From NCBI RefSeq assembly GCF_009903625.1, contig NZ_CP047569.1, positions 702,001-766,000 of the forward strand: a stretch of 64,000 bases of DNA, written 5' to 3'. This document shows positions 8,355-50,290 of this stretch, one piece after another; the first letter of the stretch is position 1, and every line of letters begins with the position of its first letter. The position numbers and the translations under genes were made by a program. Origin of the DNA: Microbulbifer sp. ALW1 (GTDB lineage: Bacteria > Pseudomonadota > Gammaproteobacteria > Pseudomonadales > Cellvibrionaceae). Below the pieces are notes generated by a model. It was not told where the DNA came from. It ran no database searches and saw nothing but the letters and a program-made list of their open reading frames with translations.

Positions 8355-8480
8355 GTGGCGGCCCTGCTGCCGGGTAGGCCTTTGTGAGACACGCCGTGAA
8401 CCCATCCATGGGGGCTCGGCTGCGGCCGTCCTGGCCGCAGACGGTCTCACAAAGGCCTACCCGGCATCAGCGCCTTCGCA
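8355..8480 (-). repeat. Structured palindromic repeat, type A copy 1 (hexR-uvrD gap)
   Basis: The outer stem pairs 8368-8390 with 8444-8466 perfectly over 23 bp. It encloses a hairpin with stem CTGCGGCC/GGCCGCAG (about 8419-8439) and a small CCCAT/ATGGG hairpin (8401-8412). The ends carry GTGGCGG (8355-8361) and CCTTCGCA (8473-8480), shared with the other copies in the window. The strand carrying GGA in both loops is the minus strand. The element lies between divergent genes. Confidence 0.9.
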
Positions 8481-8503
8481 TTGAATTTCAGTGGGTCAAA
8501 ACC

Positions 8504-8519
8504 CTGTTTATATACCCAG
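8504..8519 (+). promoter_or_regulatory. Putative LexA (SOS) box upstream of uvrD
   Basis: The 16-mer CTGTTTATATACCCAG fits the gammaproteobacterial LexA pattern CTGT-N8-ACAG with one mismatch in the conserved half-sites and an AT-rich centre. It ends 31 bp before the uvrD start, and uvrD is an established SOS gene in E. coli. A possible -10 (TACAAT, 8538-8543) lies just downstream, so LexA would cover the -35 region. Functional binding is inferred. Confidence 0.65.
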
Positions 8520-8550
8520 TTACTCCAAAACCCCTGATACAATCCGCCCC

Positions 8551-10782
8551 ATGGACGTATCTGAACTTTTAGACCCTCTCAACGATCCCCAGCGCGAGGC
8601 AGTAGCCGCGCCCCCGGGCAATCAATTGGTCCTCGCCGGTGCCGGCTCGGGCAAAACCCGAGTGCTGGTGCACCGTATCGCCTGGCTGATGCAGGTGGAG
8701 GGGGCATCGCCCTACTCCATCATGGCGGTGACCTTCACCAACAAAGCGGCGCGGGAGATGCGCGGGCGCATCGAGGAGCTGCTGGGGGTGAATACCTTCG
8801 GCATGTGGGTGGGCACCTTCCACGGCCTTGCCCACCGCCTGCTGCGTGCTCACTGGCAGGAGGCGAAGCTGCCGCAGAATTTCCAGATTCTCGACAGTGA
8901 CGACCAGCTGCGCCTGATCAAGCGGGTGCAGAACGAGTTGGGGCTGGACGAGAAAAGCTGGTCGCCGCGGGAGTCCCAATGGTGGATCGGCGGCCAGAAA
9001 GACGAGGGCATTCGCCCGCAATACATCCAGCTCACCGGCGACCCCTGGCTGCAGACCATGGTGCGGATTTACAGCGCCTATGAAGAGGCCTGCCAGCGCG
9101 CGGGTGTGGTGGACTTCGGCGAACTGCTGCTGCGCGCCCACGAACTGCTGCGGGATAACGACAATATCCTCGCCCATTACCGCCGCCGCTTCCCGTTCAT
9201 TCTGGTGGACGAGTTCCAGGATACCAACACGATTCAGTACGCCTGGCTGCGCCTGCTGGCTGGCGACCAGTGTGCCATCACGGCGGTGGGTGACGACGAC
9301 CAGTCCATCTACGGCTGGCGCGGTGCCAAAATCGAGAATATCCAGCACTTCGAAGCGGATCTGAGGGACGTACAGACGGTGCGCCTGGAGCAGAACTACC
9401 GCTCCACCAGCACCATCCTGAATGCCGCCAACGCGGTGATCGCGCAGAACGCCGGTCGCCTGGGCAAGGAACTGTGGACCGAAGGGGAAAAAGGCGAGCC
9501 TATTTCCCTCTACTCCGCCTACAACGAGCAGGATGAAGCGCGGTTTATTGTCGAACGTATCCGCGACTGGGTGCGCGATGGCAATCGCCGCGACAGCGTG
9601 GCCATCCTGTACCGCTCCAACGCCCAGTCGCGGGTGCTGGAAGAAGGATTGCTGCGGGAACAGATTCCCTACCGTATTTACGGCGGCCAGCGCTTCTACG
9701 AGCGGCTGGAGATCAAGAACGCGCTGTCATATATGCGCCTGATCACCAACCGCCACGATGACACCTCCTTCGAGCGGGTGGTGAATACCCCCACCCGCGG
9801 CATCGGCGCGCGCACCGTGGAGCTGGTGCGGGAATTTGCCCGCGAGCACGGCAGTTCCATGTGGGATGCGGCGGCCAAGATGCTGCAGCAGAAAGTCCTC
9901 GCCGCGCGCGCCGGCAATGCGCTGGCGAACTTCCTCAGCCTGATCGACGCGCTGGACGAAGAGAGCACCGACAAAACCCTCGATCACATTGCCGAGCTGG
10001 GCATCGAGCAGACCGGCCTGATCGATTTCCACAGCAAGGAAAAAGGCGAGAAGGGCCAGACCCGGGTAGAAAACCTCAAGGAACTGGTCAGCGCCTGTCG
10101 CGCGTTTGACGGCGTGCCCACGGCGGACGCCGATGGCGAAGCGGTGGACGAGGAAGAGATTCCGTTACTGAACCAGTTCCTCGACAGCGCCGCGCTGGAT
10201 GCCGGCGAGGGCCAGGCGGACGAGTTTGAAGACGCGGTACAGCTGATGACCCTCCATTCGGCCAAAGGTTTAGAGTTCCCGCTGGTGTTTATGGCCGGGG
10301 TGGAGGAAAACCTCTTCCCGCACAAAATGTCGGCCCAGGAACCCGGGCGCATGGAGGAAGAGCGCCGCCTCTGCTACGTGGGTATCACCCGCGCGATGCA
10401 GAAGTTGTACATGACCTACGCCGAGTGCCGGCGTCTGTTCGGCAGCGAAACCTATAACAAGCCATCGCGGTTTGTGAGTGAAATTCCGGTGGAGTATATC
10501 CACGAGGTGCGACTCAAAACGGAAATTTCCAAGCCGCTGTTCCAGCCCAAGTCATTCGGCAACTATGGCGGCGGCATCAACCCATACTCCGATGCGGCGC
10601 CGGAGTTCGACGACGACCTGCCACCCCTGGCGCTTGGTGGGCGTGTCGACCATGCCAAATTCGGTGAGGGCACGGTGGTGCAGTTTGAAGGCAGTGGCCC
10701 GCGCGCGCGGGTGCAGGTCAACTTCGACGACGCCGGCAGCAAATGGCTGGTAGTATCCATGGCCAAATTACAGCCTCTCTGA
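8551..10782 (+). CDS. uvrD: DNA helicase II (UvrD, 3'-5' SF1 helicase)
   Basis: A 743-residue helicase acting in nucleotide excision repair and mismatch repair. The start was set at 8551 because MDVSELLDPLNDPQREAVAAP aligns with the E. coli UvrD N-terminus; the frame extends 20 codons further upstream. Motifs: Walker A GAGSGKT (residues ~30-36), AVTFTNKAAREM, DEFQDTN (~220), GDDDQSIYGWRGA, QNYRST, TLHSAKGLEFP and GITRAMQKLYMT; then the C-terminal tail with a HAKFGEGTVVQFEG fold, typical of the UvrD/PcrA Tudor-like end. No clear Shine-Dalgarno precedes the ATG; the possible -10 at 8538-8543 would give a nearly leaderless mRNA. A LexA-like box lies upstream. Confidence 0.97.
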   Translation: MDVSELLDPLNDPQREAVAAPPGNQLVLAGAGSGKTRVLVHRIAWLMQVEGASPYSIMAVTFTNKAAREMRGRIEELLGVNTFGMWVGTFHGLAHRLLRAHWQEAKLPQNFQILDSDDQLRLIKRVQNELGLDEKSWSPRESQWWIGGQKDEGIRPQYIQLTGDPWLQTMVRIYSAYEEACQRAGVVDFGELLLRAHELLRDNDNILAHYRRRFPFILVDEFQDTNTIQYAWLRLLAGDQCAITAVGDDDQSIYGWRGAKIENIQHFEADLRDVQTVRLEQNYRSTSTILNAANAVIAQNAGRLGKELWTEGEKGEPISLYSAYNEQDEARFIVERIRDWVRDGNRRDSVAILYRSNAQSRVLEEGLLREQIPYRIYGGQRFYERLEIKNALSYMRLITNRHDDTSFERVVNTPTRGIGARTVELVREFAREHGSSMWDAAAKMLQQKVLAARAGNALANFLSLIDALDEESTDKTLDHIAELGIEQTGLIDFHSKEKGEKGQTRVENLKELVSACRAFDGVPTADADGEAVDEEEIPLLNQFLDSAALDAGEGQADEFEDAVQLMTLHSAKGLEFPLVFMAGVEENLFPHKMSAQEPGRMEEERRLCYVGITRAMQKLYMTYAECRRLFGSETYNKPSRFVSEIPVEYIHEVRLKTEISKPLFQPKSFGNYGGGINPYSDAAPEFDDDLPPLALGGRVDHAKFGEGTVVQFEGSGPRARVQVNFDDAGSKWLVVSMAKLQPL

Positions 10783-10865
10783 TTTGTGTGCCCTCCCGGT
10801 AGCTATTTAATGGCTCCCTGGAGGGCGCAGCCCAGACAAAACCAACAATAAAAATTCAAACGGAC

Positions 10866-11999: not shown

Positions 12000-12000
12000 A

Positions 12001-12032
12001 AAACGGGGCCTATTGGCCCCGTTTCTATTTTT
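12001..12032 (+). terminator. Intrinsic terminator after the TRAP binding-protein gene
   Basis: A 10-bp perfect stem AAACGGGGCC/GGCCCCGTTT with TATT loop directly follows the stop codon, then a T-rich run. It separates this gene from the convergent small membrane-protein gene. Confidence 0.9.
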
Positions 12033-12068
12033 ATCCACAGCTTCGAAGGTTTTCACCGCGTTGGGATT

Positions 12069-12365: not shown

Positions 12366-12631
12366 TCGGGAAATCCTTATCCGGTTTTATAGGTAAGGTC
12401 GGATATTATCCCAGGGGTGCAACTCGAAAAAATAAACAGATCGAGTTTTTTAAAAAGTAGGTATCTGGATGGAACGGACGTTTCAGCGGCTGCACCGGAA
12501 GAAATGGAGTGGTGCCGGTACCGGAATCTTTCCCAGTCTGACTTGTGGGGAGCGTTGTTGCGGAGATGGTTTTGTCGGTGTGATGTCGGTGGACCCGGGG
12601 GCCCAGGATAAATCCCGGGCCGCTGGTGATA

Positions 12632-15001: not shown

Positions 15002-16636
15002 ATGAACAAAATATTGATAGTCGTGCTCGCCATCATCGCCCTGGTGGTGGGCATTCTTGTGGGGCGCGGCCTGTCCGGCGGTGACGACACCGCGCAGGGC
15101 GCCAGCGGCGAAAAGAAAATCCTCTACTGGGTCGCGCCCATGGACCCCAACTACCGTCGCGACGGCCCCGGCAAATCGCCCATGGGCATGGACCTGGTGC
15201 CCGTCTACGAGGGCGAGGAAGGTGAGGCCAAGCCGGGCACCGTATCCATCTCCTCCCAGGTGGAAAACAACCTGGGTGTGCGCACCGCGGTAGCGGAGAA
15301 AGGCCCGGTGACCATCGAGGTCGACACCGTGGGCCTGGTGCAGCTGGATGAAGACAAGCTGCACCACGTGCACACCCGCCTGAGCGGTTGGGTGCACAAG
15401 AGCTGGGTCAAGGCCGTGGGGGATCGTGTGCGCAAGGGGCTGCCGCTGGTGGCGATCTACTCGCCAGAGCTGGTCAAGGCACAGAGTGAACTGGTGGCGG
15501 CCCTGCAAAGCGGCAACCGCACCCTGATCGAGGCCACCCGCGAGCGTCTGGAAAGCCTCGGGGTGCCCGCGGAGCAGCTGCGTGCGCTGGATAAATCCCG
15601 GCAGGTGAGCCAGACCATCACTCTCTACTCGCCCACCGATGGCTATGTGAATGAATTCGCCGCCCGCGACGGCATGTATATCACCCCCGCCACCACCCTG
15701 ATGAGCATCGGCCCACTGGAAACCGTGTGGGTGGAAGGCGAGCTGTTCCCGAAACAGGGCGCCCAGGTACAGGTGGGGGATACCGCCACCCTGCAGGGAG
15801 AGTTCGCTCCGGGCCGCAGCTGGACCGGCAAACTGGTGCACATACTCCCGGATCTCGACCCCAAGACCCGCACCCTGCGCGTGCGGGTGCTGGTGGACAA
15901 CGCCGACAAAGCCTTGCGTCCGGGCATGTTTGTGCGCCTGCAGCTGGGTGGCCAGAAGGTGGACACCTTGACCGTGCCGCGCAGCGCCCTGATCCGCACC
16001 GGTGACATGGACCGGCTGGTGATCGCCGAGGGCGGCGGCCGTTATCGCTCGGTGCGCGTGCGGGTGGGCCGCGAACTGGGCAAGCGAGTGGAAATCCTCG
16101 CCGGACTCGAACCCGGTACCGAGGTCGTTACCTCGGCCCAGTTCCTGCTGGATTCCGAGTCCAGCATTAGCGCCGATCTGCAGCGCATCGAGGGCGAAGG
16201 TGACGCGAACAGCAGTAAAAAGTCAGCAAAAGCCGATACCGCCTGGGCCGAGGCCACGGTGCTCAGCATGCCCGACGACAACCACTACGCGCGCCTAGAG
16301 CACGGCCCGGTGCCGGAGTGGGACTGGCCCGGTATGGTGATGGGATTCCATGTGGCGGAAGCCGCGCAGCAGGCATTACGCGATGCGCTGGAAAGCGGCG
16401 CGCCGCTGCGGGTGCAGATGCGCCAGCGCGACGACGGTAAATACGAGGTGATCGCCGCTCGCGCCTTGGCCGATGATTCCCTGATGCCGGGGCACGAAGG
16501 TCACGAGCAAATGGATCACTCGCAGATGGATCACGGCGAGATGAACCACGGAGAAATGGACCACTCGCAGATGGAGCATGGCGAGATGAACCACGGTGAC
16601 ATGGATCACTCCGGACCGCAGGAGCCGCAGAAATGA
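15002..16636 (+). CDS. cusB: CusB-type periplasmic adaptor fused to a CusF-like domain with a His/Met repeat tail
   Basis: A 544-residue membrane-fusion protein of a heavy-metal RND pump. In order: one N-terminal membrane helix (residues 4-22); a heavy-metal-binding motif YWVAPMDPNYRRDGPGKSPMGMDL (~40-63); the barrel-sandwich and hairpin domains with HHVHTRLSGWVHK and GYVNEFAARDGMYI; then a CusF-like metallochaperone domain (~415-495, with WPGMVMGF and related residues). It ends in seven copies of a five-residue unit of the type (Q/E/D)M(D/N/E)H(G/S). CusB feeds Cu(I)/Ag(I) to CusA; the fused domain and tail add methionine and histidine ligands. It overlaps cusA by 4 bp. Confidence 0.92.
   Translation: MNKILIVVLAIIALVVGILVGRGLSGGDDTAQGASGEKKILYWVAPMDPNYRRDGPGKSPMGMDLVPVYEGEEGEAKPGTVSISSQVENNLGVRTAVAEKGPVTIEVDTVGLVQLDEDKLHHVHTRLSGWVHKSWVKAVGDRVRKGLPLVAIYSPELVKAQSELVAALQSGNRTLIEATRERLESLGVPAEQLRALDKSRQVSQTITLYSPTDGYVNEFAARDGMYITPATTLMSIGPLETVWVEGELFPKQGAQVQVGDTATLQGEFAPGRSWTGKLVHILPDLDPKTRTLRVRVLVDNADKALRPGMFVRLQLGGQKVDTLTVPRSALIRTGDMDRLVIAEGGGRYRSVRVRVGRELGKRVEILAGLEPGTEVVTSAQFLLDSESSISADLQRIEGEGDANSSKKSAKADTAWAEATVLSMPDDNHYARLEHGPVPEWDWPGMVMGFHVAEAAQQALRDALESGAPLRVQMRQRDDGKYEVIAARALADDSLMPGHEGHEQMDHSQMDHGEMNHGEMDHSQMEHGEMNHGDMDHSGPQEPQK
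16508..16612 (+). repeat. Coding 15-bp tandem repeat (7 units), His/Met metal-binding tail of CusB
   Basis: Seven in-frame units of 15 bp encode QMDHS, QMDHG, EMNHG, EMDHS, QMEHG, EMNHG and DMDHS. The methionine and histidine of each unit are invariant while the flanking residues vary. The repeat count could change by slippage, altering metal-binding capacity. Confidence 0.9.
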
Positions 16637-19600
16637 TCGCGCGTATCATTCAGTGGTCCCTGCACAACCGCGCCCTGGTACTGATCGGTGCGGTGGTGCT
16701 GACTCTTGCCGGTCTCTACAGCCTGCGCAACACGCCGGTGGACGCGCTGCCAGATCTCTCCGATGTGCAGGTGATCGTCAAAACCAGCTACCCCGGCCAG
16801 GCGCCGCAGGTGGTGGAAGACCAGGTCACCTACCCTCTCACCACCGCAATGCTGAGTGTGCCTGGGGCGCACACGGTGCGCGGCTATTCGTTTTTCGGTG
16901 ACTCCTACGTTTACGTTATTTTCGACGACGATGTCGACCTCTACTGGGCAAGATCCCGCGTACTCGAGTACTTGAGCCAGGTGGCCCCGCGCCTGCCCGC
17001 AGCGGCGCGCTCGGAGCTGGGGCCGGACGCCACCGGCGTGGGCTGGATTTACAGCTACACCCTGGTGGATCGCAGCGGCCAGCACGACCTGGCGCAACTG
17101 CGCTCACTGCAGGACTGGTTCCTGAAATACGAGCTGCAGACCCTGCCCGGCGTATCCGAAGTGGCCACCGTGGGCGGCATGGTGCGGCAGTACCAGGTGC
17201 AGGTGGATCCCCTGCGCCTGCGCGCCTACGACCTCACCCTTGCCCAGGTGCAGGCGGCGATCGAGCGCGGCAATCGCGAGTCCGGGGCCTCGGTGGTGGA
17301 AATGGCGGAAGCCGAGTACATGGTGCGCGCCAGCGGCTATATCCAGAGCGTGGAAGACCTGCGCCAGCTGCCGCTTCTGGTGAACAAAAGTGGTACCCCG
17401 CTGCTGTTGCGGGATGTGGCGGATGTACACCTGGGCCCGCAGATGCGCCGTGGCCTGTCAGAGCTCGACGGCAAGGGCGAGGCCGTCGGCGGCGTGATCG
17501 TGATGCGCTTCGGCGAGAATGCGCGCGCCGTCATCGATGGCGTGCGCAACCGGCTGCAAGATTTGCAGCGCAGCCTGCCGGAGGGAGTGGAGATCGTCCC
17601 CACCTACGATCGCAGCGAGCTGATCGATAGCGCTGTGGAGAACCTGTGGCACAAGCTGCTGGAGGAATTCATCGTGGTGGCGCTGGTGTGTGCGCTGTTC
17701 CTGTTCCACCTGCGCTCGTCGCTGGTGATCGCGATCAGTCTGCCGCTGGGCATTATCGGTGCCTTTATCGTGATGCACCTGCAGGGGATCAACGCCAACA
17801 TCATGAGCCTCGGCGGTATTGCCATCGCCATCGGCGCCATGGTGGACGGCGCCATCGTGATGATCGAAAACCTGCACAAGCATATGGAGCGCACCCCGCT
17901 CAATGATGAGAACCGGTGGAAAGTCGTCGGTGAGGCCGCCAGCGAGGTGGGCCCGCCCCTGTTCTTCAGCCTGTTGATTATCACCCTCAGCTTCCTGCCG
18001 GTGTTTGCGCTGGAAGGCCAGGAGGGGCGGCTGTTCGCACCGCTCGCCTACACCAAGACCTACGCCATGGCCGTCGCCGCCGGCCTCGCCATTACCCTGG
18101 TGCCGGTGCTGATGGGTTACCTGGTGCGCGGCGAAGTGAAGCCGGAGCAGGCCAACCCCATCAACCGCGCGTTTACCGCTGCCTACCGCCCGGCCCTGGA
18201 ACTGGCGATCCGCCATCCGCTGCTGGTGGTCATTACCGCACTGGTGTTGCTCGCCAGCGCCCTGTATCCCCTGTCGCGTACCGGCAGCGAGTTTATGCCA
18301 CCGCTGGACGAGGGCGACCTGATGTATATGCCCAGCACTCATCCCGGCATCTCCATCGGCAAGGCCCGCGAACTGCTGCAGCAGACCGCCAAGATGATCA
18401 TGCAGGTGCCGGAGGTTGCGCAGGTGTGGGGCAAGATGGGCCGCGCGGAAACCGCCACCGACCCGGCGCCGCTGACCATGGTGGAGACCATCATCCGCTT
18501 CAAGCCCCGCGACCAGTGGCGCGAGGGCATGACCCCGGAGAAGCTGCGCGCAGAACTGGACGCGGCGGTGCAGCTGCCCGGGGTCACCAACGCCTGGGTG
18601 ATGCCGATCAAGACTCGCATCGACATGCTCGCCACCGGTATCAAGACCCCGGTGGGGATCAAGGTTGCCGGTGCCGACCTGCACCAGATCGAGCAGATCG
18701 GCACCCGGCTGGAATCCCTGCTGAAAGATGTGCCGGGCACCGCGTCGGTGTTCGCCGAGCGCGTGGAGGGCGGCCGCTATATCGATATCGATATCGACCG
18801 CAGCGCGGCGGCGCGCTACGGCCTGAATATTCAGGACGTGCAGACGGTGATCGACACCGCGGTGGGTGGCAAAAAGGTGGGCGAAACCACCGAGGGCCTG
18901 GAGCGCTACCCGATCAATGTGCGTTATCCACAGGCCTGGCGGGACTCCCCGGAAAGTCTGCGCGGCCTGCCGCTGGTGGCCCCCAATGGCACCCACCTGA
19001 GTCTGGGTGACGTGGCCACCATCGAAGTGCAGAGCGGCCCGCCGATGATCAAGACCGAGAATGCGCGCCCCAACGGCTGGATATACATCGATATCGCTGA
19101 CCGCGACCTGGGTTCCTGGGTAGCGGAGGCACAGCAACTGGTTGCGGACCAACTGGAACTGCCGCCGGGCTATTCCCTGGCGTGGTCCGGGCAATACGAA
19201 TACATGGAGCGCGCCCGCGAGCGCCTCGGCCTGCTGTTGCCGGTGACCCTCGGTATCATCGTGTTGTTGCTGTATTTCAGTTTCCGCCACTGGGGCGAGG
19301 TGCTGGTGATCATGGGCACCCTGCCGATGGCGTTGATTGGCGGCCTGTGGCTGCTGTACTGGCTCGACTTCAACCTGTCGGTGGCGGTGGGCGTTGGCTT
19401 TATCGCGTTGGCCGGGGTGGCGGTGGAAATCGGCGTGATCATGCTGGTGTATCTCAACCAGGCCTGGAAACAGACGCAGGCCGATTGTGAAGCTGCCGAC
19501 CGCAAACCAACCCGGGACGACCTGCGCGATGCGATTCGCCGTGGTGCCGGTCAGCGCATGCGCCCGGTGTTGATGACTACCGCCACGGTGTTTATCGGCC

Positions 19601-19773
19601 TGGTGCCGGTGATGATTGGCTCGGGGGTTGGTTCCGAGGTGATGCAGCGCATTGCGGCACCGATGGTTGGGGGCATGGTCAGTGCCATGTTGTTGACTTT
19701 GATGGTGTTGCCAGCGGTGTACCGCTTGTGGAAGGGGCGAGGACTGCACTCCGACCCCGGGATTACTTCTTAA
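16633..19773 (+). CDS. cusA: CusA-type heavy-metal RND efflux pump (Cu(I)/Ag(I))
   Basis: A 1046-residue inner-membrane RND transporter, matching E. coli CusA (1047). It starts IARIIQWSLHNRALVLIGAVVLTLAGLYSLRNTPVDALPDLSDVQVIVKTSYPGQAPQVVEDQVTYPL, and the fourth membrane helix holds the HME-RND proton-relay motif GAMVDGAIVMIENLHKH. Other family blocks are TGSEFMPPLDEGDLMYMPS and GWIYIDIADRDLGSWV. It pumps monovalent copper or silver from cytoplasm and periplasm via CusB and the CusC-like channel. It shares ATGA with cusB, so the two are translationally coupled. No cusRS pair is nearby. Confidence 0.95.
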   Translation: MIARIIQWSLHNRALVLIGAVVLTLAGLYSLRNTPVDALPDLSDVQVIVKTSYPGQAPQVVEDQVTYPLTTAMLSVPGAHTVRGYSFFGDSYVYVIFDDDVDLYWARSRVLEYLSQVAPRLPAAARSELGPDATGVGWIYSYTLVDRSGQHDLAQLRSLQDWFLKYELQTLPGVSEVATVGGMVRQYQVQVDPLRLRAYDLTLAQVQAAIERGNRESGASVVEMAEAEYMVRASGYIQSVEDLRQLPLLVNKSGTPLLLRDVADVHLGPQMRRGLSELDGKGEAVGGVIVMRFGENARAVIDGVRNRLQDLQRSLPEGVEIVPTYDRSELIDSAVENLWHKLLEEFIVVALVCALFLFHLRSSLVIAISLPLGIIGAFIVMHLQGINANIMSLGGIAIAIGAMVDGAIVMIENLHKHMERTPLNDENRWKVVGEAASEVGPPLFFSLLIITLSFLPVFALEGQEGRLFAPLAYTKTYAMAVAAGLAITLVPVLMGYLVRGEVKPEQANPINRAFTAAYRPALELAIRHPLLVVITALVLLASALYPLSRTGSEFMPPLDEGDLMYMPSTHPGISIGKARELLQQTAKMIMQVPEVAQVWGKMGRAETATDPAPLTMVETIIRFKPRDQWREGMTPEKLRAELDAAVQLPGVTNAWVMPIKTRIDMLATGIKTPVGIKVAGADLHQIEQIGTRLESLLKDVPGTASVFAERVEGGRYIDIDIDRSAAARYGLNIQDVQTVIDTAVGGKKVGETTEGLERYPINVRYPQAWRDSPESLRGLPLVAPNGTHLSLGDVATIEVQSGPPMIKTENARPNGWIYIDIADRDLGSWVAEAQQLVADQLELPPGYSLAWSGQYEYMERARERLGLLLPVTLGIIVLLLYFSFRHWGEVLVIMGTLPMALIGGLWLLYWLDFNLSVAVGVGFIALAGVAVEIGVIMLVYLNQAWKQTQADCEAADRKPTRDDLRDAIRRGAGQRMRPVLMTTATVFIGLVPVMIGSGVGSEVMQRIAAPMVGGMVSAMLLTLMVLPAVYRLWKGRGLHSDPGITS

Positions 19774-19782
19774 GCTGGTTTG

Positions 19783-19905
19783 GTGGCGGCCAAGCACCGG
19801 GGATTCGTTTTTGAAACCGGCATGAATACGTCCCTGTAGCCTGCGTCGGAAACATCCCTGTTTCCGACGCTTTCAAAAACGAATCCCCGGCACTTGGCCT
19901 TCGCA
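19783..19905 (-). repeat. Structured palindromic repeat, type B copy 1
   Basis: The outer stem pairs 19797-19816 with 19871-19890 perfectly (20 bp). Inside are a 12-bp hairpin (stem GCGTCGGAAACA, 19843-19870, loop TCCC on plus, GGGA on minus) and a small hairpin (19827-19838). The ends carry GTGGCGG and CCTTCGCA, as in the type A copies. The GGA loops are on the minus strand. Its stems differ in sequence from copies 2 and 3 but remain fully paired. Confidence 0.9.
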
Positions 19906-19964: not shown

Positions 19965-20087
19965 TTGAAGGTGGCGTGCCGGGTGCAGGTTTTCAGGAGC
20001 GTCGGCGACAGGGACGTCGCCGACGCAGCGTACAGGGATGTATTCACAGCGGTCCTGAAAACCTGCAGCCGGTGCGCCGCCGCCACC
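19965..20087 (+). repeat. Structured palindromic repeat, type B copy 2
   Basis: The outer stem pairs 19985-19998 with 20053-20066 (14 bp perfect), with partial pairing beyond. Inside are an 11-bp hairpin (19999-20026) with loop AGGGAC and the hairpin TACAGGGATGTA (20031-20042). The segment GTACAGGGATGT (20030-20041) equals the CsrA SELEX consensus RUACARGGAUGU. The GGA strand is plus. Confidence 0.9.
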
Positions 20088-20113: not shown

Positions 20114-21475
20114 TTAACCTGCAACGAAGCCCGGCAACCAGGTCGCCAGCGATGGCCACACTGCCAACAGACACATCATCAGCAACTGGATCGCAATAAA
20201 CGGCACCACCCCCCGGTAAATGGCCCCGGTAGACACTTCCACCGGCGCCACACCGCGCAGGTAGAAGAGCGCAAAACCGAACGGCGGTGTAAGGAATGAA
20301 GTCTGCAGATTCAGCGCGATCATCACGCCCAGCCATATTGGGTCCAGCCCCATGGCCAGCAGCACAGGGCCGACGATGGGGACTACCACAAAGGTGATCT
20401 CGATAAAGTCGAGGATGAAACCCAGCAGGAAAATCACCAGCATCACCAACAGGGTTGCGCCGATCACCCCTCCCGGCAGGCTATTGAAAAAGTGAGTGAC
20501 CACTTCCTCGCCGCCAAATCCGCGGAATACCAGAGAGAACAGCGAGGCGCCGATCAGGATCGCAAACACCATGGCGGTGACCTGCAGGGTGCTTTGCCCC
20601 ACTTCGCTGGCACGCTGCCAGTTCAGGGCCCCGCGCCCCCAGGCCAGTATTCCCGCACCCAGGGCACCGACGGCCGCGGCTTCGGTGGGCGTGGCAGCAC
20701 CGGTGATAATGGAGCCGAGTACCAGCAGCATCAGGGCGATGGGCGGGAACAGGCTTTTCAGGATCTGCAGTGTTTCGATGTCGTCATCAGGCCGCTGGGT
20801 TTGCGCCGGTTCGCGGCGGGCGATAAACAACAGATAGAGTATGTAGGCCGCGACCAGTAACAGCCCGGGAATGATCGCCCCCATAAACAGGTCGCCCACA
20901 CTCACCGGCTTCGGGTTGAAGATGCCTTGGCTGAGCTGGGCCTGCTGGTAGGCGTTGGACAGGGTGTCTCCCAACAGTACCAGCGCGATGGACGGGGGAA
21001 TGATCTGCCCCAGGGTGCCGGTGGCGCAGATGGTGCCGGTGGCGAGTTTGGGGGAGTAGCCGCGTTTCAGCATGGTGGGCAGGGACATCAGGCCCATGGT
21101 CACCACGGTAGCACCGACGATGCCGGTGCTGGCGGCGAGCAGCGCGCCCACCACCACCACCGAGACCGCCATGCCCGCGGGAATCCCCGAGAAGACCCGC
21201 GCCAGGTTCACCAGCAATTCTTCGGCAATCCGCGCACGCTCCAGCATCACACCCATCAGCACAAATAGCGGCACCGCCATCAGGGTGCCGTTTTGCATGA
21301 TGCCGTAGAGGCGGTCGGGGAAGGCGCGCAGCAGTTCCGCATCGAATACACCGCCGACGATGCCGAGGCCGGCGGCCAGCAGCGCGGTACCGCCCAGGGT
21401 AAAGGCCACCGGGTAGCCGAGCATCAGCGCGCCGCATACGACCAGAAACATCAGCAGGGGGATCAGTTCCATCAT
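20114..21475 (-). CDS. dctM: TRAP transporter large permease (DctM type)
   Basis: A 453-residue inner-membrane protein with about 12-13 helices, typical of TRAP large subunits. Recognisable blocks: LGYPVAFTLGGTALL, NGTLMAVPLFVLMGVMLERARIAEELL, GIVGATVVTMGLMSLPTMLKRGYSPKLATGTICATGTLGQIIPPSIALVLLGD, and the C-terminal SFLTPPFGFALFYLRGV. It resembles the mannitol/chloroaromatic-type subgroup, matching the orphan binding protein at 10866-11999. It uses a sodium gradient to import an organic acid. It overlaps dctQ by 4 bp. Confidence 0.92.
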   Translation of the reverse strand: MMELIPLLMFLVVCGALMLGYPVAFTLGGTALLAAGLGIVGGVFDAELLRAFPDRLYGIMQNGTLMAVPLFVLMGVMLERARIAEELLVNLARVFSGIPAGMAVSVVVVGALLAASTGIVGATVVTMGLMSLPTMLKRGYSPKLATGTICATGTLGQIIPPSIALVLLGDTLSNAYQQAQLSQGIFNPKPVSVGDLFMGAIIPGLLLVAAYILYLLFIARREPAQTQRPDDDIETLQILKSLFPPIALMLLVLGSIITGAATPTEAAAVGALGAGILAWGRGALNWQRASEVGQSTLQVTAMVFAILIGASLFSLVFRGFGGEEVVTHFFNSLPGGVIGATLLVMLVIFLLGFILDFIEITFVVVPIVGPVLLAMGLDPIWLGVMIALNLQTSFLTPPFGFALFYLRGVAPVEVSTGAIYRGVVPFIAIQLLMMCLLAVWPSLATWLPGFVAG

Positions 21476-34586: not shown

Positions 34587-35900
34587 TCATACTGAACTCA
34601 CCGCCGTCAGCTTTTGTGACGGGAAGTTGAGGGTAAAGGTACTGCCGCGGCCGGGCACACTGGTCACACTCATATTGGCGCTGTGGCGTATCAGCACGTG
34701 TTTGACGATGGCCAGGCCGAGACCGGTACCGCCACTTTCCCGCGAACGGCCCGCATCCACGCGGTAGAAGCGCTCGGTAAGGCGCGGGATATGTAGGGAA
34801 TCAATACCGATACCGGAATCCTTCACCGAAAAATGCCCGCCCGCCGCGTCCACCTGCCAGCGCAACTCGATAGGCCCGCCGTCCGGACTGTACTTCACCG
34901 CGTTGAACGCCAGGTTGGCAAAGGCACTGTGCAGCTCACCGGCATCCCCGGTAATGGTGCAATCCTCATCAAAATGCACGGAGATATCGTGGCGCTCACC
35001 ACTCAGCGAACGCGCCTCACCGGCCACCCGCTCCATCAGCTCCCGCACTGAAACCTTGTCCCGGCCGCTGTCGCGTTCCGAGGTTTCCAGCCGTGCCAGC
35101 AACAGCAGATCATTCACCAGGCTGGTCATACGCACTGTCTGCTCGCTCATCTGCCCCAGCGGCCGCTCCCAGTTGCGCGGCGCCTGGCCGCTGAGCTGCA
35201 GGGTCTCCAGATAGCCCGCAATCACCGTCAGGGGCGTGCGCAACTCGTGGGAAACATTCGCCACAAAATCCCGCCGCATCTGTTCCAGGTTATGCAGCCG
35301 CGTCACATCCCGCACAATCACCAGCGCCTCATCCTGGCCGAAACGGGTGACCTCCATCTGCAAAATGCGCGAATCGTCCCCCGGCGCCGGCAGCGTAATC
35401 GGCTCCTGCGAGCCGCCGCGCCGCCCCGACATCCGCTGATAGATATGCTCCACAAAGCGCGGGTCGCGCACAAAATTCACCAGCGGCTGGCCCGCATCGT
35501 CCGTCTGCAGCCGCAACATCTGTCCCGCTGCCGGATTCCACCAGGCCAGATTGCCCTCATCTTCCAGCGCAACAATCCCCTCGCGCAGTGCACTGGTACT
35601 GTCCTGCACCCGGCGCAGCATGGAATGGAGCTTTTGCTTTTCTTTGCGGTGGCGGCGCTGCATGCGATAGAAATCGTCGGAAATATCCCCCCAGACCCCG
35701 AAGCTGGTGGGCGCCGGGCCGCGGCGGCCATTGGAGAGCCAGCGATCGAACTGGTTCTGTTGCCAGAGCAACCAGAAGAGGTAAACGGTGAGGCCGGAAC
35801 AGAGTGCCAGCCACCAGTGGCCGGTGGAAAAACCGAAAATGGTGGTGCCGAGGGCGATGACGATAAAACGCGAGAACTCGCCAATACTGCGATCGAGCAT
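34587..35900 (-). CDS. phoR: Phosphate-regulon sensor histidine kinase PhoR
   Basis: A 437-residue kinase, near E. coli PhoR (431). Two N-terminal helices (residues ~11-47), a positively charged linker, a PAS domain (~100-200), then the HisKA domain with the phospho-accepting histidine 218 in DFVANVSHELRTPLTVI. The ATPase domain has N (ANLAFNAVKYSPDGG), G1 (VKDSGIGID) and G2 (GGTGLGLAIVKH) boxes. It phosphorylates PhoB when phosphate is scarce and is held off by Pst/PhoU. It lies downstream of phoB, but a 233-bp gap containing a type B repeat separates them. Confidence 0.96.
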   Translation of the reverse strand: MLDRSIGEFSRFIVIALGTTIFGFSTGHWWLALCSGLTVYLFWLLWQQNQFDRWLSNGRRGPAPTSFGVWGDISDDFYRMQRRHRKEKQKLHSMLRRVQDSTSALREGIVALEDEGNLAWWNPAAGQMLRLQTDDAGQPLVNFVRDPRFVEHIYQRMSGRRGGSQEPITLPAPGDDSRILQMEVTRFGQDEALVIVRDVTRLHNLEQMRRDFVANVSHELRTPLTVIAGYLETLQLSGQAPRNWERPLGQMSEQTVRMTSLVNDLLLLARLETSERDSGRDKVSVRELMERVAGEARSLSGERHDISVHFDEDCTITGDAGELHSAFANLAFNAVKYSPDGGPIELRWQVDAAGGHFSVKDSGIGIDSLHIPRLTERFYRVDAGRSRESGGTGLGLAIVKHVLIRHSANMSVTSVPGRGSTFTLNFPSQKLTAVSSV

Positions 35901-35968: not shown

Positions 35969-36092
35969 AGCGAAGGCTGAGTGCCGGGAGCGGGTTTTCA
36001 GGATCGTCGGCGACAGGGATGTCGCCGACGAAGCGTACAGGGATGTATTCACAGCGGTCCTGAAAATCCGCCCCCGGTGCTCAGCCGCCACC
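35969..36092 (+). repeat. Structured palindromic repeat, type B copy 3 (between phoB and phoR)
   Basis: The outer stem pairs 35990-36003 with 36058-36071 (13 of 14), with a further imperfect CTGAG...CTCAG pairing outside. Inside are an 11-bp perfect hairpin (36005-36030, loop GGGA) and TACA-GGGA-TGTA (36036-36047). GTACAGGGATGT occurs at 36035-36046. The GGA strand is plus, so phoBR mRNA carries the complement. The ends AGCGAAGG and CCGCCACC match the other copies. Confidence 0.9.
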
Positions 36093-36133: not shown

Positions 36134-36838
36134 TTACACCCTTTCCACTGTCTGTACAGAAAAGCGGTAACCGGTGCCGCGCACTGTCTGGATATAGCGC
36201 TCGTGGCCATCGACGGTGAGCGCCTTGCGCAGGCGACGGATATGCACATCCACAGTGCGCTCCTCCACATACACATTGCCACCCCAGACATGGTCCAGCA
36301 GCTGAGTGCGGGTATAGGCGCGTTCCTGATGCGACAGGAAAAAGGTCAGCAAGCGAAACTCCGTCGGCCCCATATCCACCGGGTTGCCATTGATCGTCAC
36401 CCGGTGACTGATCGGATCCAGCACCAGACCACCCGCCGTCAACGGCTCCTCCGGTGTACTCGGCCCGGCGCGGCGCAACACCGCCTTGAGGCGCGCCACC
36501 AGCTCACGGGGAGAAAATGGCTTGGTGATGTAATCATCGGCGCCGGTCTCCAGCCCCTTGATCTTGTGATCCTCCTCACCCTTGGCCGTCAGCATAATGA
36601 TCGGCAGCGAAGACGTCAGCTCATCCCGCTTCAGGCGGCGGGCCAGCTCAACCCCGGACACATCCGGCAGCATCCAATCCAGCAGAATCAGGTCCGGCTT
36701 CTCATCGATCACCAGCGCGTGGGCCGCCTGGGCATTTTCCGCCTCCAGGCAGCGGTAATCCGCCATCTCCAGGGCTATTCGCAACATGTCCCGGACCGGG
36801 GCCTCGTCGTCGACTATGAGAATCGTCTTGCTATGCAT
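36134..36838 (-). CDS. phoB: Phosphate-regulon response regulator PhoB
   Basis: A 234-residue OmpR-class regulator. The receiver domain has the acidic pair D10/D11, phospho-acceptor D54 in LILLDWMLPD, T/S in IIMLTAKGEE and lysine in DDYITKPFSPRELVARLKAVLRR. The C-terminal winged helix contains MGPTEFRLLTFFLSHQERAYTRTQLLDHVWG and the recognition helix VEERTVDVHIRRLRKAL. It activates Pho-box promoters, here pst and its own. A Pho box 64 to 92 bp upstream of the start codon indicates autoregulation. Confidence 0.97.
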   Translation of the reverse strand: MHSKTILIVDDEAPVRDMLRIALEMADYRCLEAENAQAAHALVIDEKPDLILLDWMLPDVSGVELARRLKRDELTSSLPIIMLTAKGEEDHKIKGLETGADDYITKPFSPRELVARLKAVLRRAGPSTPEEPLTAGGLVLDPISHRVTINGNPVDMGPTEFRLLTFFLSHQERAYTRTQLLDHVWGGNVYVEERTVDVHIRRLRKALTVDGHERYIQTVRGTGYRFSVQTVERV

Positions 36839-45574: not shown

Positions 45575-45617
45575 CCTGGACTATTCAGTCAATGGCACTT
45601 TATAGCTAATATAGCTA

Positions 45618-46675: not shown

Positions 46676-46686
46676 ACATACCTGTC

Positions 46687-46709
46687 GCGCCGCCGTTCAT
46701 AGGCGGCGC
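46687..46709. terminator. Hairpin between convergent SDR and ridA genes
   Basis: GCGCCGCC pairs with GGCGGCGC across a 7-base loop. T-runs are absent on both sides, so termination is uncertain. Confidence 0.5.
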
Positions 46710-46745
46710 AGTGTCTTCCCTCATTGTCTTTGGACGCGGGCGCCT

Positions 46746-47129
46746 TTAGATCACCATCACACCTTCGGCTTCAAACTGTGCGCCCTTGGGCAGCTGGCTC
46801 ACGCCTACCGCGGCACGGGCCGGGAAGGGTTTCGAGAACACTTCTTCCATGACTTCATTGACGGTGGCGAAATTGCTGAGGTCGGTGAGGTAAAGGTTCA
46901 GCTTGACGATGCTGTCGAGGGAGCCGTTGGCGGCTTCACATACGGCTTTGAGGTTCTGGAAAACCTGTACCGCCTGTTCGCGGAAGTCGTCGGACACCAG
47001 TTCCATGGTTTCCGGCACCAGTGGGATCTGGCCGGATAGGTAGATGGTGTTGTCGACCTTGACGGCCTGCGAGTAGCTGCCGATAGCAGCCGGTGCCTTA
47101 TCAGTTTTTATCACGGCGCGATTGGGCAT
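46746..47129 (-). CDS. ridA: RidA-family enamine/imine deaminase
   Basis: A 127-residue protein, usual for RidA (128). The motif block [29 protein letters not shown] near the start and the C-terminal active-site arginine in [26 protein letters not shown] are intact. RidA hydrolyses reactive 2-aminoacrylate and related imines formed by PLP enzymes. It lies downstream of spoT on the same strand, separated by 389 bp containing a type A repeat, so it probably has its own promoter. Confidence 0.95.
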
Positions 47130-47518
47130 GGGTTACTTCTCCGGGCCTCAACAGGCCTGCTTGCTGAAAAAGAAAGCGGGAGAATATAGCGCGGTTTCCG
47201 GGGTTTGGGGAGGTGTCGTCAGCTGCAGGCAGCGATATGCGAAGCTGTCCACATTCCGTGAAAAACACGACAAAACCCTTTCGGGTTTCATCGGATTTTC
47301 GCAATTCGCATCCGCGTCAATCCATTGAATGCTTCGTTCGTAAGTTGGTGGCGGCACTGCTACCGATGTTTGCTCGCGAGACACGCCGTACACCCATCCC
47401 TGGGGGCTCGGCTGCGGCCGTCCTGGCCGCAGACGGTCCCGCGAGCAAACACCGGTATCAGTACCTTCGCATTGAACAATTGAGAAGTTGGTTGCCGCAG
47501 TTGGGTGCTTACTGGCAC
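47130..47518. other. Intergenic region between spoT and ridA
   Basis: These 389 bases contain no supportable gene. The middle holds a type A repeat (47348-47471). Frames running through it on either strand are shadows of the repeat. The ridA promoter presumably lies in the 200 bases next to 47130; nothing clear is seen. Confidence 0.7.
47348..47471 (-). repeat. Structured palindromic repeat, type A copy 2 (spoT-ridA gap)
   Basis: The outer stem pairs 47361-47382 with 47436-47457 at 20 of 22 positions; its sequence is unrelated to copies 1 and 3 over the inner half. The core (GACGGCCGCAG hairpin plus CCCATCCCTGGGG hairpin) is near-identical to copies 1 and 3. GGA loops are on the minus strand, the strand transcribed from spoT. 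Confidence 0.88.
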
Positions 47519-49636
47519 CTACGGGCGGGCAATTTTGATCACTGCAGGCAGGTTGCGCAGGCGTTTCATCACTCGGGCCAGGTGCACGCGGTTGGCCACT
47601 TCCAGGGTCATTGCGATGACACTATGCTGGGCATCTTTCTCATCCACGTGGATCTGCTCGATACTGGCGCCCTCTTCGGTAATGCGGGTGGCGAGTCGCG
47701 CAATGATGCCGCGTTCGGACTCCACTTCGACCCGCACATCGCCGAGGAACTCACCTTTTACATCCGGCGACCAGTTGACCGCCATGATGTTTTCCGGGTG
47801 TTCGCGCAGCTCTTCCGCATTGCGGCAGCTGTCGCGGTGCACCACTACGCCCTTGCCGGAGCTGATGTGGCCCATGATGGTGTCGCCGGGAATCGGGCGG
47901 CAGCAGCGGGCGAAGCTGATCATCATGCCCTCCTGGGCATCAATGGTCAGCGGTGAGGAGATGTTGCTTGCTTCGGATTCGACGGTGCCCGGCGGTACCA
48001 GCAGTTTGGCCGCAGAGAAGGCGGCGCGGTTGCCGAGGCCGATTTCTTCCAGCAGCTTGTCGAAAGTTTCGCATCGGGCTTCCTTGGCGCCGTGCAGTTT
48101 CTGTTCGTCGCTGAGGTCGGATGTTTTCAGCTTGAACTTCGCCAGGGCTTTTTCGAGTAGACGCTGCCCCAGCGCAATGGAGTCGTGGTGGCGCTGGTGC
48201 TTGAGGTAGTGGCGAATGGCGCTGCGGGCTTTTGCGGTCACCACAAAGTTGAGCCAGTTGGGATTTGGCTGCACGTTTTTGCTGGTGAGGATTTCCACTT
48301 TCTGGCCGCTTTCCAGTGGTTGCGACAGCGGCGCCAGGCGCTGGTTGATGCGCACTGCAACGCAGGAGTTGCCCACGTCGGTGTGCACCGAGTAGGCGAA
48401 GTCCACCGCGGTGGCACCGGCGGGCAGGTCGATGATCTTGCCCTTGGGTGTAAACACGTACACCTCGTCCGGGAAGAGATCGATCTTTACGTTCTCGATA
48501 AATTCCAGCGAGTCGCCGGCGCGCTGCTGCATCTCCAGCAGGCCCTGTACCCAGCGGCGCGCGCGTACCTGGCTGGTGCCGCCGGTATTCAGTACTTCGT
48601 CGCCGGAGGATTTGTACAGCCAGTGGGCGGCGATACCGCTGTTGGCCATCTCATCCATTTCCTTGGTGCGGATCTGCACCTCGATAGGCACCCCGTGCAT
48701 GCCGAGCAAAACCGTGTGCAGGGACTGGTAGCCGTTGGATTTGGGGATGGCGATATAGTCTTTGAACTCACTGATCACCGGCTTGTACAGGTTGTGGATA
48801 ACCCCGAAGGTCCGGTAGCAGGTGTCCACACTGTCGACGATGATGCGGAAGGCGTAGACGTCCATGATTTCCTTGAACGACTTCTTCTTCGAACGCATCT
48901 TCTGGTAAATGCTGTAGAGATGCTTCTCGCGGCCGATTACCAGCGCGTCGATTTTTTCCCGCTCCAGGCGCAGCTCGATGGCGTTCTGGATCTTCTCCAG
49001 AAGCTCCTTGCGGTTTCCGCGGGCGGCGACCAAAGCGGCGCGCAGGCGACTGGCGCGCAGGGGATAGATGGCGAAGAAGGCGCGGTCTTCGAACTCGATC
49101 CGCACGTCGTTCATGCCCAGGCGGTTGGCGATGGGCGCGTAAATCTCGAGGGTCTCGCGGGCAATGCGCGCGCGCTTTTCCGGTTTGAGTGAGCCGAGGG
49201 TGCGCATGTTATGCAGGCGGTCGGCGAGCTTCACCAGGATCACGCGGATATCCCGCGCCATGGCCAGGGCCATTTTCTGGAAGTTCTCCGCCTGCTTCTC
49301 CGCCGGGCTGTCGGTCTCGAACTGGGTCAGCTTGGAGACCCCGTCCACCAGATCCGCAATCTCTTCACCAAACTGCTCCGCCAGTGCCGCCTTGGGGATA
49401 CCGGTGTCTTCGATGACATCGTGCAGCATGGCCGCGGCCAGGCTCTGGGCGTCCATGTGCATGCCCGCCAAGATAGTGGCGACGGCGAGGGGGTGGGTGA
49501 TATAGGGTTCGCCGGAGCGCCGGGTCTGGCCCTCGTGGGCCTGCTCCGCGTAAAAATAGGCGCGGCGGACGAACTGAATCTGGTCGGTGGGAAGGTAGGA
49601 CGAGAGGCGATGGGCCAGACTGTCGATGGTGTGCAA
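47519..49636 (-). CDS. spoT: Bifunctional (p)ppGpp synthetase/hydrolase SpoT
   Basis: A 705-residue long RelA/SpoT homologue, the length of E. coli SpoT (702). Order: HD hydrolase with GEPYITHPLAVATILAGMHMD and LHDVIEDT (residues ~38-75), synthetase with SIYQKMRSKKKSFKEIMDVYAFRIIVDS and PKSNGYQSLHTVLLG, TGS domain with LPAGATAVDFAYSVHTDVG, a CC/zinc-finger region FARCCRPIPGDTIMGH and a C-terminal ACT domain. It sets alarmone levels in response to starvation. It follows rpoZ and gmk on the same strand as in E. coli. Confidence 0.96.
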   Translation of the reverse strand: MHTIDSLAHRLSSYLPTDQIQFVRRAYFYAEQAHEGQTRRSGEPYITHPLAVATILAGMHMDAQSLAAAMLHDVIEDTGIPKAALAEQFGEEIADLVDGVSKLTQFETDSPAEKQAENFQKMALAMARDIRVILVKLADRLHNMRTLGSLKPEKRARIARETLEIYAPIANRLGMNDVRIEFEDRAFFAIYPLRASRLRAALVAARGNRKELLEKIQNAIELRLEREKIDALVIGREKHLYSIYQKMRSKKKSFKEIMDVYAFRIIVDSVDTCYRTFGVIHNLYKPVISEFKDYIAIPKSNGYQSLHTVLLGMHGVPIEVQIRTKEMDEMANSGIAAHWLYKSSGDEVLNTGGTSQVRARRWVQGLLEMQQRAGDSLEFIENVKIDLFPDEVYVFTPKGKIIDLPAGATAVDFAYSVHTDVGNSCVAVRINQRLAPLSQPLESGQKVEILTSKNVQPNPNWLNFVVTAKARSAIRHYLKHQRHHDSIALGQRLLEKALAKFKLKTSDLSDEQKLHGAKEARCETFDKLLEEIGLGNRAAFSAAKLLVPPGTVESEASNISSPLTIDAQEGMMISFARCCRPIPGDTIMGHISSGKGVVVHRDSCRNAEELREHPENIMAVNWSPDVKGEFLGDVRVEVESERGIIARLATRITEEGASIEQIHVDEKDAQHSVIAMTLEVANRVHLARVMKRLRNLPAVIKIARP

Positions 49637-49693
49637 AGCCGCGATCGCCTCTTAGTGTTCCAGCAGTTCCTGTATCAAATTCTCAGATCTGGC

Positions 49694-49957
49694 TTACAGA
49701 TCTTGCTCGGACAGGAATACCGGCGCGGGCGCGGCGTGGCGTACTGGCTCGTCTTCCGGCTCGTCGAGGATGCTGGCGTCAACAAAGCCTTCTTCGATTT
49801 CACGCAGGGCGATCACGGTAGGCTTGTCGTTTTCTTCTGGCACGAAGGGGTCGCGGCCGCCGGTGGCGATCTGGCGGGCGCGCTTGCTGCCTACGATAAC
49901 CAGCTCAAAGCGGTTGTCTACGTGGTCGAGGCAATCTTCAACGGTAATACGGGCCAT
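49694..49957 (-). CDS. rpoZ: RNA polymerase omega subunit
   Basis: An 87-residue protein beginning [30 protein letters not shown], diagnostic for omega, with [17 protein letters not shown] following. It helps fold beta' and forms one of the ppGpp sites on polymerase. It sits 57 bp before spoT and 333 bp after gmk; that gap holds a type A repeat. Confidence 0.97.
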
Positions 49958-50290
49958 AAATCTTCTGTTCCAGTGTGGGCTCGCCCGTGTGGGCGAAATT
50001 AGCGAATTCTGGCGTCTGCCCGGCAGGTCAATGCAGGGGCGGACTGGGGGTAGCTATTCTACCGGACCGCGCGGTGTACGCAAATCGAACAGTCGCTGCA
50101 AGCGTGATTTGTTGTCTGGCGATGTCCAGTGCGCGATATGCGAAGGTGGCGATACCGGGTAAAGCTTTGTGAGACCGTCTGCGGCCAGGACGGCCGCAGC
50201 CGAGCCCCCATGGATGGGTTTACGGCGTGTCTCACAAAGCTTTACCCGGTAGCGGCACCGCCACGGAGTCTGTTAAGAACTCTTGTTCGG
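49958..50290. other. Intergenic region between gmk and rpoZ
   Basis: These 333 bases contain a type A repeat (50139-50264) and no gene. The stretch next to rpoZ (49958-50130) should contain the rpoZ-spoT promoter; no motif is clear enough to name. Confidence 0.7.
50139..50264 (+). repeat. Structured palindromic repeat, type A copy 3 (gmk-rpoZ gap)
   Basis: The outer stem pairs 50153-50175 with 50229-50251 perfectly (23 bp). Core: CTGCGGCC-AGGAC-GGCCGCAG and CCCAT-GG-ATGGG. The ends are TGCGAAGG (50139-50146) and CCGCCAC (50258-50264). The GGA strand is plus, opposite to gmk-rpoZ transcription. Confidence 0.9.

Follow-up and report, generated by a model that had tools for sequence, protein, structure and literature searches.

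The Rsm/Csr small RNAs (RsmX/Y/Z, CsrB/C) are described as containing multiple hairpins in which a stem carries GGA within an A(N)GGAX loop, with two or more sites per molecule, an arrangement suited to a dimeric protein (PMC4005645, PMC4383904). The high-affinity form reported for RsmE/CsrA is an ANGGAX hexaloop on a stem, or an AGGAX pentaloop in which the N is missing (PMC4005645). The repeat elements described here, from the marine bacterium Microbulbifer sp. ALW1, share these traits, but whereas the small RNAs come from one to a few genes under their own control, the elements are dispersed and palindromic, number more than 100, and hold two sites each.

Among dispersed repeats, REP/BIME sequences with their RAYTs are likewise intergenic, palindromic, present in many copies, close to gene 3' ends, and arranged in inverted pairs; they differ in that a REP is a palindrome of 20–40 bp (PMC3733652) with a tetranucleotide tag, whereas the elements measure 121–139 nt (121 copies in the ALW1 genome, typically ∼123 nt) and contain two inner hairpins. 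IS5-type MITEs are non-coding, as are the elements, which in one congener only (genome G005) also show inverted ends and YTAR duplications; MITEs, however, are defined by their ends, whereas the core of the element is kept across many genera with mostly different ends. Integron attC sites were weighed as an identity and set aside. Certain enterobacterial repeat units, probably ERIC, are similar to the elements in length. These units are reported as 127 bp (PMC2759123). In the main texts of the open-access literature, no account of this repeat family and no CsrA sites in dispersed repeats appeared among the matches listed.

Six elements in the window and the wider family

At E ≤ 1, covariance model R1 (trained on 10 copies, including three window copies) found exactly six elements in the window, the whole 64-kb stretch of DNA analyzed here, three on each strand (Table 1); three further rows of this search were opposite-strand readings of the same six places. 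The three window copies absent from the R1 training set still scored 78–82 bits. The original prediction had located the six to within 1–2 bases and had grouped them as a single structured-repeat family with an outer stem and two hairpins, a description borne out both by the R1 matches and by single-strand folding, in which every copy formed a long outer stem around two inner hairpins with z = −7.4 to −12.1 (200 shuffles each, 0 of them equally good). The outer stem, described there as pairing over 13–23 bp, is indeed long but extends to about 29 pairs, and the proposed exchange of AA/TT for CG/CG is real but sits in hairpin A rather than hairpin B (element positions 43–44 with 53–54). The window elements fall into two classes, A and B, and carry GGA in both hairpin loops; the three/three strand split, the classes, and the paired GGA loops were not part of the earlier description. 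No tRNA was found in the window, and Rfam 15 gave 0 matches there at the gathering cut-off, so that the elements are unlike the Rsm/Csr sRNA families in this respect as well. A permissive Rfam search with the copy at 35970 returned nothing convincing, the best match being Ysr224 on the other strand (29.7 of 70 bits).

Table 1. Repeat elements of the window and their inner hairpins (strand is that of the GGA loops).
Feature	Coordinates	Strand	Score, loop or sequence, and basis	Site
Element, class B, 126 nt	8354..8479	-	R1 81.9 bits; fold z −12.1	Upstream gene region on one side, uvrD (8491-10782, +) on the other
Hairpin A	8420..8440	-	Loop AGGAC, pentaloop form; sequence and fold	
Hairpin B	8394..8419	-	Loop ATGGAT; sequence and fold	
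Element, class A, 123 nt	19782..19904	-	R1 134.1 bits; fold	First of inverted pair; pair lies from CusA/CzcA-type efflux gene (16633-19773, +) to TRAP permease gene (20114-21475, -)
Hairpin A	19844..19869	-	ACAGGGATGT; fold	
Hairpin B	19819..19841	-	ACAGGGACGT; fold	
Element, class A, 123 nt	19965..20087	+	R1 137.9 bits; fold	Second of inverted pair
Hairpin A	20000..20025	+	ACAGGGACGT; fold	
Hairpin B	20028..20050	+	GTACAGGGATGT; exact CsrA SELEX site	
Element, class A, 123 nt	35970..36092	+	R1 137.7 bits; fold	phoR (34587-35900, -) to phoB (36134-36838, -); GGA strand antisense to both
Hairpin A	36005..36030	+	ACAGGGATGT; fold	
Hairpin B	36033..36055	+	GTACAGGGATGT; exact CsrA SELEX site	
Element, class B, 124 nt	47347..47470	-	R1 80.8 bits; fold	Directly beyond 3' end of spoT/relA-family gene (47519-49636, -)
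Hairpin A	47412..47432	-	Loop AGGAC; sequence and fold	
Hairpin B	47386..47411	-	Loop AGGGAT; sequence and fold	
Element, class B, 126 nt	50140..50265	+	R1 78.3 bits; fold	Directly beyond 3' end of guanylate kinase gene (50291-50911, -)
Hairpin A	50179..50199	+	Loop AGGAC; sequence and fold	
Hairpin B	50200..50225	+	Loop ATGGAT; sequence and fold	

Far from finding no further copies, covariance-model searching of the ALW1 genome recovered at least 121. Of 194 genomes from the host's order, 66 contained relatives of the element, and the exact core pattern had matches in Marinobacter, Pseudomonas, Xanthomonas, Stenotrophomonas, and others; the plasmid and phage collections gave no match to the element or core queries tried.

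Covariation and folding of the GGA strand

The compensatory changes first claimed for six copies hold far beyond them and stay strong as more copies are aligned. Across the 124 rows of alignment A4, 1343 cells were changed on both sides of a pair, compared with 359 in shuffles and 109–252 with slid partners; the last three rows are opposite-strand readings, kept in this count and dropped from all others. Among 45 gapless copies to which no model had been fitted, the corresponding numbers were 308 observed, 84 in shuffles, and 14–74 with slid partners. Copies at the same site in relatives also maintained pairing via double changes, in a comparison over four sites that set aside paired and more distant copies, as well as those that were interrupted or shortened, and skipped two gmk- pairs for gaps. 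Five of the 30 rows of alignment A6 and one of the 130 rows of alignment A7 were likewise left out. The repeats are one structured family with true compensatory changes.

Read on the GGA strand, departures from Watson–Crick pairing in the outer stem were G-U in 83 cases and A-C in 10, and a model-free count on the same strand gave 120 and 17 (from the 94 of 122 elements in which 11 or more of the 14 pairs beside the core were Watson–Crick). Because this excess was alike in gene-sense and gene-antisense copies, single-strand folding of the GGA strand, as RNA or ssDNA, is under selection. RNA pairing predicts departures of the G-U rather than the A-C kind, but ssDNA hairpins also tolerate G-T better than A-C, and the wobble test is therefore no proof of RNA. 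Even without CsrA as a partner, the one-strand test shows selected single-strand folding, and counting G-U against A-C in randomly oriented elements could be used elsewhere to distinguish structures formed by RNA or ssDNA from palindromes that act as double-stranded DNA.

GGA loops and a possible CsrA-type module

The original conclusion that pairing and not sequence is kept applies to the stems, which are free in sequence, but not to the two apical loops, which almost always hold GGA (118 of 121 copies for hairpin A and 121 of 121 for hairpin B in the ALW1 genome). These fixed loops are a clue to function that had been overlooked. Both loops take the A(N)GGAX form on a stem in 112/121 copies, at least one departing from it in the other 9; hairpin B is an exact SELEX site (RUACARGGAUGU) in 38/121, and the two GGA hairpins are spaced 24 nt apart in 97/121 (96 by a stricter count). 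In other genera, where elements were picked by a pattern fixing hairpin B alone, hairpin A carried GGA in 71 of 73 elements, namely those of the 83 pattern matches with enough flanking sequence. CsrA is present in 181 of the 194 genomes of the order, which agrees with a CsrA partner but was uninformative as a correlate of the elements.

From these sequence features we tentatively read the element as a mobile, bivalent CsrA-type RNA module, a reading whose chances we place somewhat short of even. In this view, a module that folds as a single strand would have been mobile in the past, and each element would be one of its scattered copies. Its ∼29-bp outer stem, largely free in sequence, carries a junction and two short hairpins presenting GGA in A(N)GGAX loops. 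Wherever the GGA strand is read into RNA, a CsrA/RsmA dimer would be offered a bivalent, high-affinity site, transcripts crossing the element could bind or titrate CsrA, and the long stem may shield or mark the 3' end of the preceding gene. Spread would have followed different routes in different lineages. We infer that this strand operates at the RNA level, with CsrA as the putative partner and titration or 3'-end control as the putative benefit.

Some observations sit less easily with this reading. Very stable stems are described as perhaps unfavorable for CsrA (PMC7652899), and hairpin A is stable, which counts against it. A site read in mRNA should favor the sense orientation, yet the elements showed no gene-orientation bias either in the ALW1 genome (49 sense, 39 antisense, 27 convergent, and 4 divergent copies) or in other genera (19, 23, 24, and 13, respectively, from 98 of 103 matches in named loci, with three cut by the end of a stretch and two with long inserts omitted), which argues against a simple mRNA role.

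If the CsrA-type reading is right, intergenic repeats usually dismissed as REP or MITE debris would supply a global RNA regulator with sites already in place, at more than 100 positions in one genome and across many genera, Pseudomonas, Xanthomonas, and Stenotrophomonas among them. Supposed filler DNA might then be a regulatory RNA part, and the old question of whether palindromic repeats in bacteria have a role beyond stabilizing mRNAs would become testable. A bolder version, in which a selfish, mobile RNA module that persists through mimicry of RsmZ hairpins has planted bivalent CsrA sites across the gammaproteobacteria, as many as hundreds per genome, forming a distributed CsrA sponge that rewires post-transcriptional control wherever it inserts, seems to us rather unlikely.

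Mobility and competing readings

In G005 the element is carried inside a 213-bp IS5-like MITE with 20-bp inverted ends, and identical 4-bp flanks border 27 of 40 such units, 25 of them being YTAR, reported as the IS5 target motif (PMC10359306). The ALW1 copies showed no excess of flanking target duplications or inverted ends. Repeat L214 has the ends of the genus elements around a core without GGA, which suggests that the loops are dispensable for moving.

Hairpins serve as recognition marks in IS200/IS605 and REP/RAYT systems, and the main rival to a CsrA-type RNA module is a DNA-level mobile element whose GGA strand is read as ssDNA, by its hairpins and loops, by a transposase or recombinase, the likeness to CsrA sites being coincidental. 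Indifference to gene orientation, the plain mobility in G005 with its ends and target duplications, and a wobble bias that suits ssDNA as well as RNA all fit this, as do close pairs reminiscent of BIMEs (14 of 18 are -/+, the other 4 +/-). We nevertheless judge it unlikely: there was no replication-arm strand bias (31 vs. 31; 23 vs. 19), the G005 unit is bounded by ends other than the element's own while the GGA-less repeat has those of the genus elements, and the exact RsmE form of the loops is left unexplained. Y1_Tnp was found in 29 of 31 genus genomes and was lacking in G012 and G022 despite their 53 and 48 element matches, which may be vertical relics; no clear association of elements with Y1_Tnp that would point to a RAYT as mobilizer was seen among the genus genomes.

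That the RNA structure instead answers to some other partner or serves another purpose, for instance in RNase III or RNase E processing, in 3'-end stability, or as the RNA intermediate of its own spread, is in our estimate quite improbable. Such a purpose would suit the long stem, which is the kind of substrate on which RNase III- and RNase E-type enzymes act, the position of codirectional elements close behind gene ends (median 35–41 bp to the gene on the 3'-end side), and their scarcity between divergent genes (4/119 copies vs. 10/48 gaps in the window), yet a stability stem requires no fixed loop and GGA is kept in both.

Decaying, functionless palindromic debris whose arms stay matched through template switching or gene conversion would accommodate the orthologous sites that are empty or different in most relatives, the left-arm remnant (G015) and interrupted copy (G215) at the phoB-phoR site, and the variant right arm in 14 of 121 copies of both classes, but such correction is strand-symmetric whereas the G-U excess is one-stranded in randomly oriented elements, so that this very improbable reading, which also leaves fixed GGA loops on divergent stems unexplained, is largely ruled out barring an element-bound, strand-biased mutation process.

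Architecture and copy number of the repeat

The six elements of the original prediction are real: a search of the window with R1, a covariance model built from 10 element copies, recovers these six and no others. With orientation defined as GAAGG...CCGCCAC, the three class-A window copies and the seven other model copies are each exactly 123 nt and align without gaps; position i of the outer stem pairs with 123-i (i = 6 to 34), positions 36-46 pair with 51-61 in hairpin A, and 67-70 with 75-78 in hairpin B. Class-B copies (124-126 nt in the window) share this layout with different stems. Predicted folds of all six copies have z-scores of -7.4 to -12.1, and an Rfam search of the window returned no family at gathering score.

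Element copies in the window, with their class and site
Window coordinates	Strand	Class	Site
8354-8479	-	B	uvrD
19782-19904	-	A	
19965-20087	+	A	
35970-36092	+	A	phoB-phoR
47347-47470	-	B	spoT
50140-50265	+	B	gmk

Across the 4.68-Mb genome, R1 located at least 118 distinct places (150 of 3793 candidates scored); with the window copy at 47347 and two more, the family proposed from six copies has at least 121 members. Lengths range from 121 to 139 nt, 49 of the 121 being exactly 123 nt, and none of 119 copies overlaps a gene predicted by our codon-model script. Close neighbors (<400 bp apart) form 18 pairs, all inverted and 14 of them -/+. Copies become sparser farther from dnaA: counted on both sides in 0.5-Mb steps, 119 copies are distributed as 44, 27, 28, and 17, with 3 in the last stretch. 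The right arm is longer in 14 of 121 copies, a GGGGGGCGCCTAG-like stretch replacing TTCACAGCG (copies of 134-139 nt lie, for example, at genome positions 50343-, 295985+, 976841+, 4401076-, and 559136+); the occurrence of this variant in both classes points to module exchange.

Compensated pairing and a one-strand wobble bias

Pairing holds in 96.1% of cells across the 124 rows fitted to the model. Both-sided changes, counted as sequences and not as events, occupy 1343 cells vs. 359 in shuffles and 109-252 with slid partners, and the covariation score is 0.645 vs. 0.183 and 0.04-0.10, respectively. As the structure itself had guided this alignment, the test was repeated on 45 gapless copies of exactly 123 nt, giving 308 cells vs. 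84 and 14-74, and a score of 0.420 vs. 0.151 and 0.04-0.10. The compensatory stem changes originally proposed are thus borne out in both alignments.

A one-arm mutation of a G-C pair leaves G-U or A-C on the strand carrying GGA in both loops, and the reverse on its complement; the two should be equally frequent if the double helix alone matters or if the arms are equalized by gene conversion. In the outer stems of the 121 copies, G-U exceeds A-C by 83 to 10 (two conserved wobble columns omitted; 76 other mismatches), with an excess of G-U in 60 copies and of A-C in 3. The excess is similar whatever the orientation to the flanking genes: 29:3 in sense copies, 31:5 in antisense, and 21:2 in convergent ones. 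Inner hairpins, with loop-closing columns omitted, hold 5 G-U, 1 A-C, and 54 others. The outer-stem bias is independent of the covariance model: Watson-Crick anchoring only, applied to 94 of 122 pattern matches, gives 120 vs. 17 (73 others), and 30 copies of the ALW1 genome found by BLAST give 12 vs. 1. Since orientation is unbiased to genes and replication arms, strand-biased mutation is an unlikely cause, and selection apparently acts on the fold that the GGA strand adopts when single-stranded.

GGA loops and candidate roles

The loops are fixed, whereas the stems are free. GGA occupies the hairpin B loop in all 121 copies and the hairpin A loop in 118. In 119 copies hairpin B reads C-ANGGAX-G. 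Hairpin A forms a hexaloop, ANGGAX, in 72 copies (closing pair C-G in 57, G-C in 15) and a pentaloop in others, which reads AGGAX in 42 and has GGA but not the A in 4; 3 copies have no GGA there. A(N)GGAX fits both loops in 112 of 121 copies, and the two GGAs are spaced 24 nt apart in 96-97. The hairpin A GGA loop is also kept in 71 of 73 elements of other genera, picked by a pattern fixing hairpin B alone. These are forms published for RsmE, for which PMC4005645 gives the hexaloop ANGGAX on a stem as high-affinity and loops without N in RsmZ SL3 and SL4. An exact CsrA SELEX site, RUACARGGAUGU (PMC7652899), lies in hairpin B in 38 of the 121 copies. CsrA is present in all four other same-genus genomes drawn. 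CsrA-family matches number 9 and 19 in two same-genus genomes (G006 and G010), where most other genomes of the order have one to a few.

We therefore tentatively regard a CsrA-type RNA module as a plausible predicted role. Gene orientation counts against a purely mRNA-borne site, which would not predict the absence of bias: 119 copies comprise 49 sense, 39 antisense, 27 convergent, and 4 divergent, and 98 hits in other genera comprise 19, 23, 24, and 13, respectively; of the rest, 8 overlap predicted genes and 11 lie at an edge. The CsrA reading would require half of the copies to be transcribed from the other side.

The wobble bias fits RNA and single-stranded DNA alike and does not distinguish them; recognition of the element as single-stranded DNA for mobility is possible, if rather unlikely.

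In one same-genus genome, G005, near-identical copies lie inside units, most of which measure 213 bp and are bounded by 20-bp inverted ends. These ends have 273 matches there (up to 2 mismatches), and none in a reversed control or in five other genomes searched. The 4-bp flanks are identical in 27 of 40 units read, and in 25 of those 27 they are YTAR, an IS5 motif according to PMC10359306. No such ends or flanking duplications were found around copies in the ALW1 genome, and Y1_Tnp showed no association with element copy number. A distinct palindromic repeat lacking GGA loops, with AACGATTGCCGAT as its core, occurs at loci L214 (G024), L218 (G017), L154, L157, L150, and L146. At L214, a uvrD site, its ends (GCGAAGG...CCGCCAC) are those of the genus elements; in this one case, with common ends around a core without GGA, movement of the element would seem not to depend on the GGA loops.

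Another RNA role of the element is less probable than its recognition as single-stranded DNA. Debris is the most doubtful reading, as gene conversion of the arms would yield equal G-U and A-C, against the observed 83:10 and 120:17.

Same-site copies and spread beyond the genome

At phoB-phoR, R1 copies occur in 7 of 30 loci: those of ALW1, G018, G001, G002, and G021, and those of G215 and G217, where the copy is interrupted and shortened, respectively; G015 retains a remnant of the left arm. In G215 (L177), another hairpin-rich stretch interrupts the element and several outer-stem pairs are lost. Full-length copies chosen at phoBR, uvrD, gmk, and spoT gave 27 pairwise comparisons, not independent of each other, with 124 compensated pairs, 44 Watson-Crick-to-GU and 9 Watson-Crick-to-AC changes, 33 other one-sided breaks, and 29 further changes; replacement by another copy may be a source of these differences. 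Orientation varies between species at gmk, and at uvrD the Microbulbifer elongatus copy is opposite to the window copy. G018 carries an inverted pair at uvrD, and loss of either member of such a pair is the simplest account of the orientation differences. Upstream of uvrD in L203 (G015), L210 (G020), L212 (G001), and L213 (G217), GTAGGAGCCTGC-type inverted repeats, which we take to resemble REPINs, occupy the site where other species have the element.

The repeats form a genuine family that is widely distributed among gammaproteobacteria, with no match in Rfam 15 and no description found in the open-access literature searched. Of 25 genomes of the genus, 24 had matches at E <= 0.001, as did 4 of 13 from elsewhere in the order, with up to 93 candidates scored in each. 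When the order was sampled evenly, with 18 candidates scored in each genome, matches at E <= 1e-6 were obtained in 66 of the 194 genomes and in 37 of the 96 genera. The exact 31-base core pattern matches at least 119 stretches, the matches listed including Marinobacter, Marinimicrobium, Halopseudomonas, Pseudomonas, Rheinheimera, Oceanisphaera, Haliea, Xanthomonas, Stenotrophomonas, and Arenimonas. Four segments of one such locus in M. elongatus (L265) align at 80-88% identity within window positions 730-10346. Elements of other families have recognizably the same core with different outer-stem sequence and mostly different ends, family f41, with similar ends, being the exception. Core matches also occur in records titled Klebsiella pneumoniae MAG (L262, L269, and L275), which are likely mixed bins.
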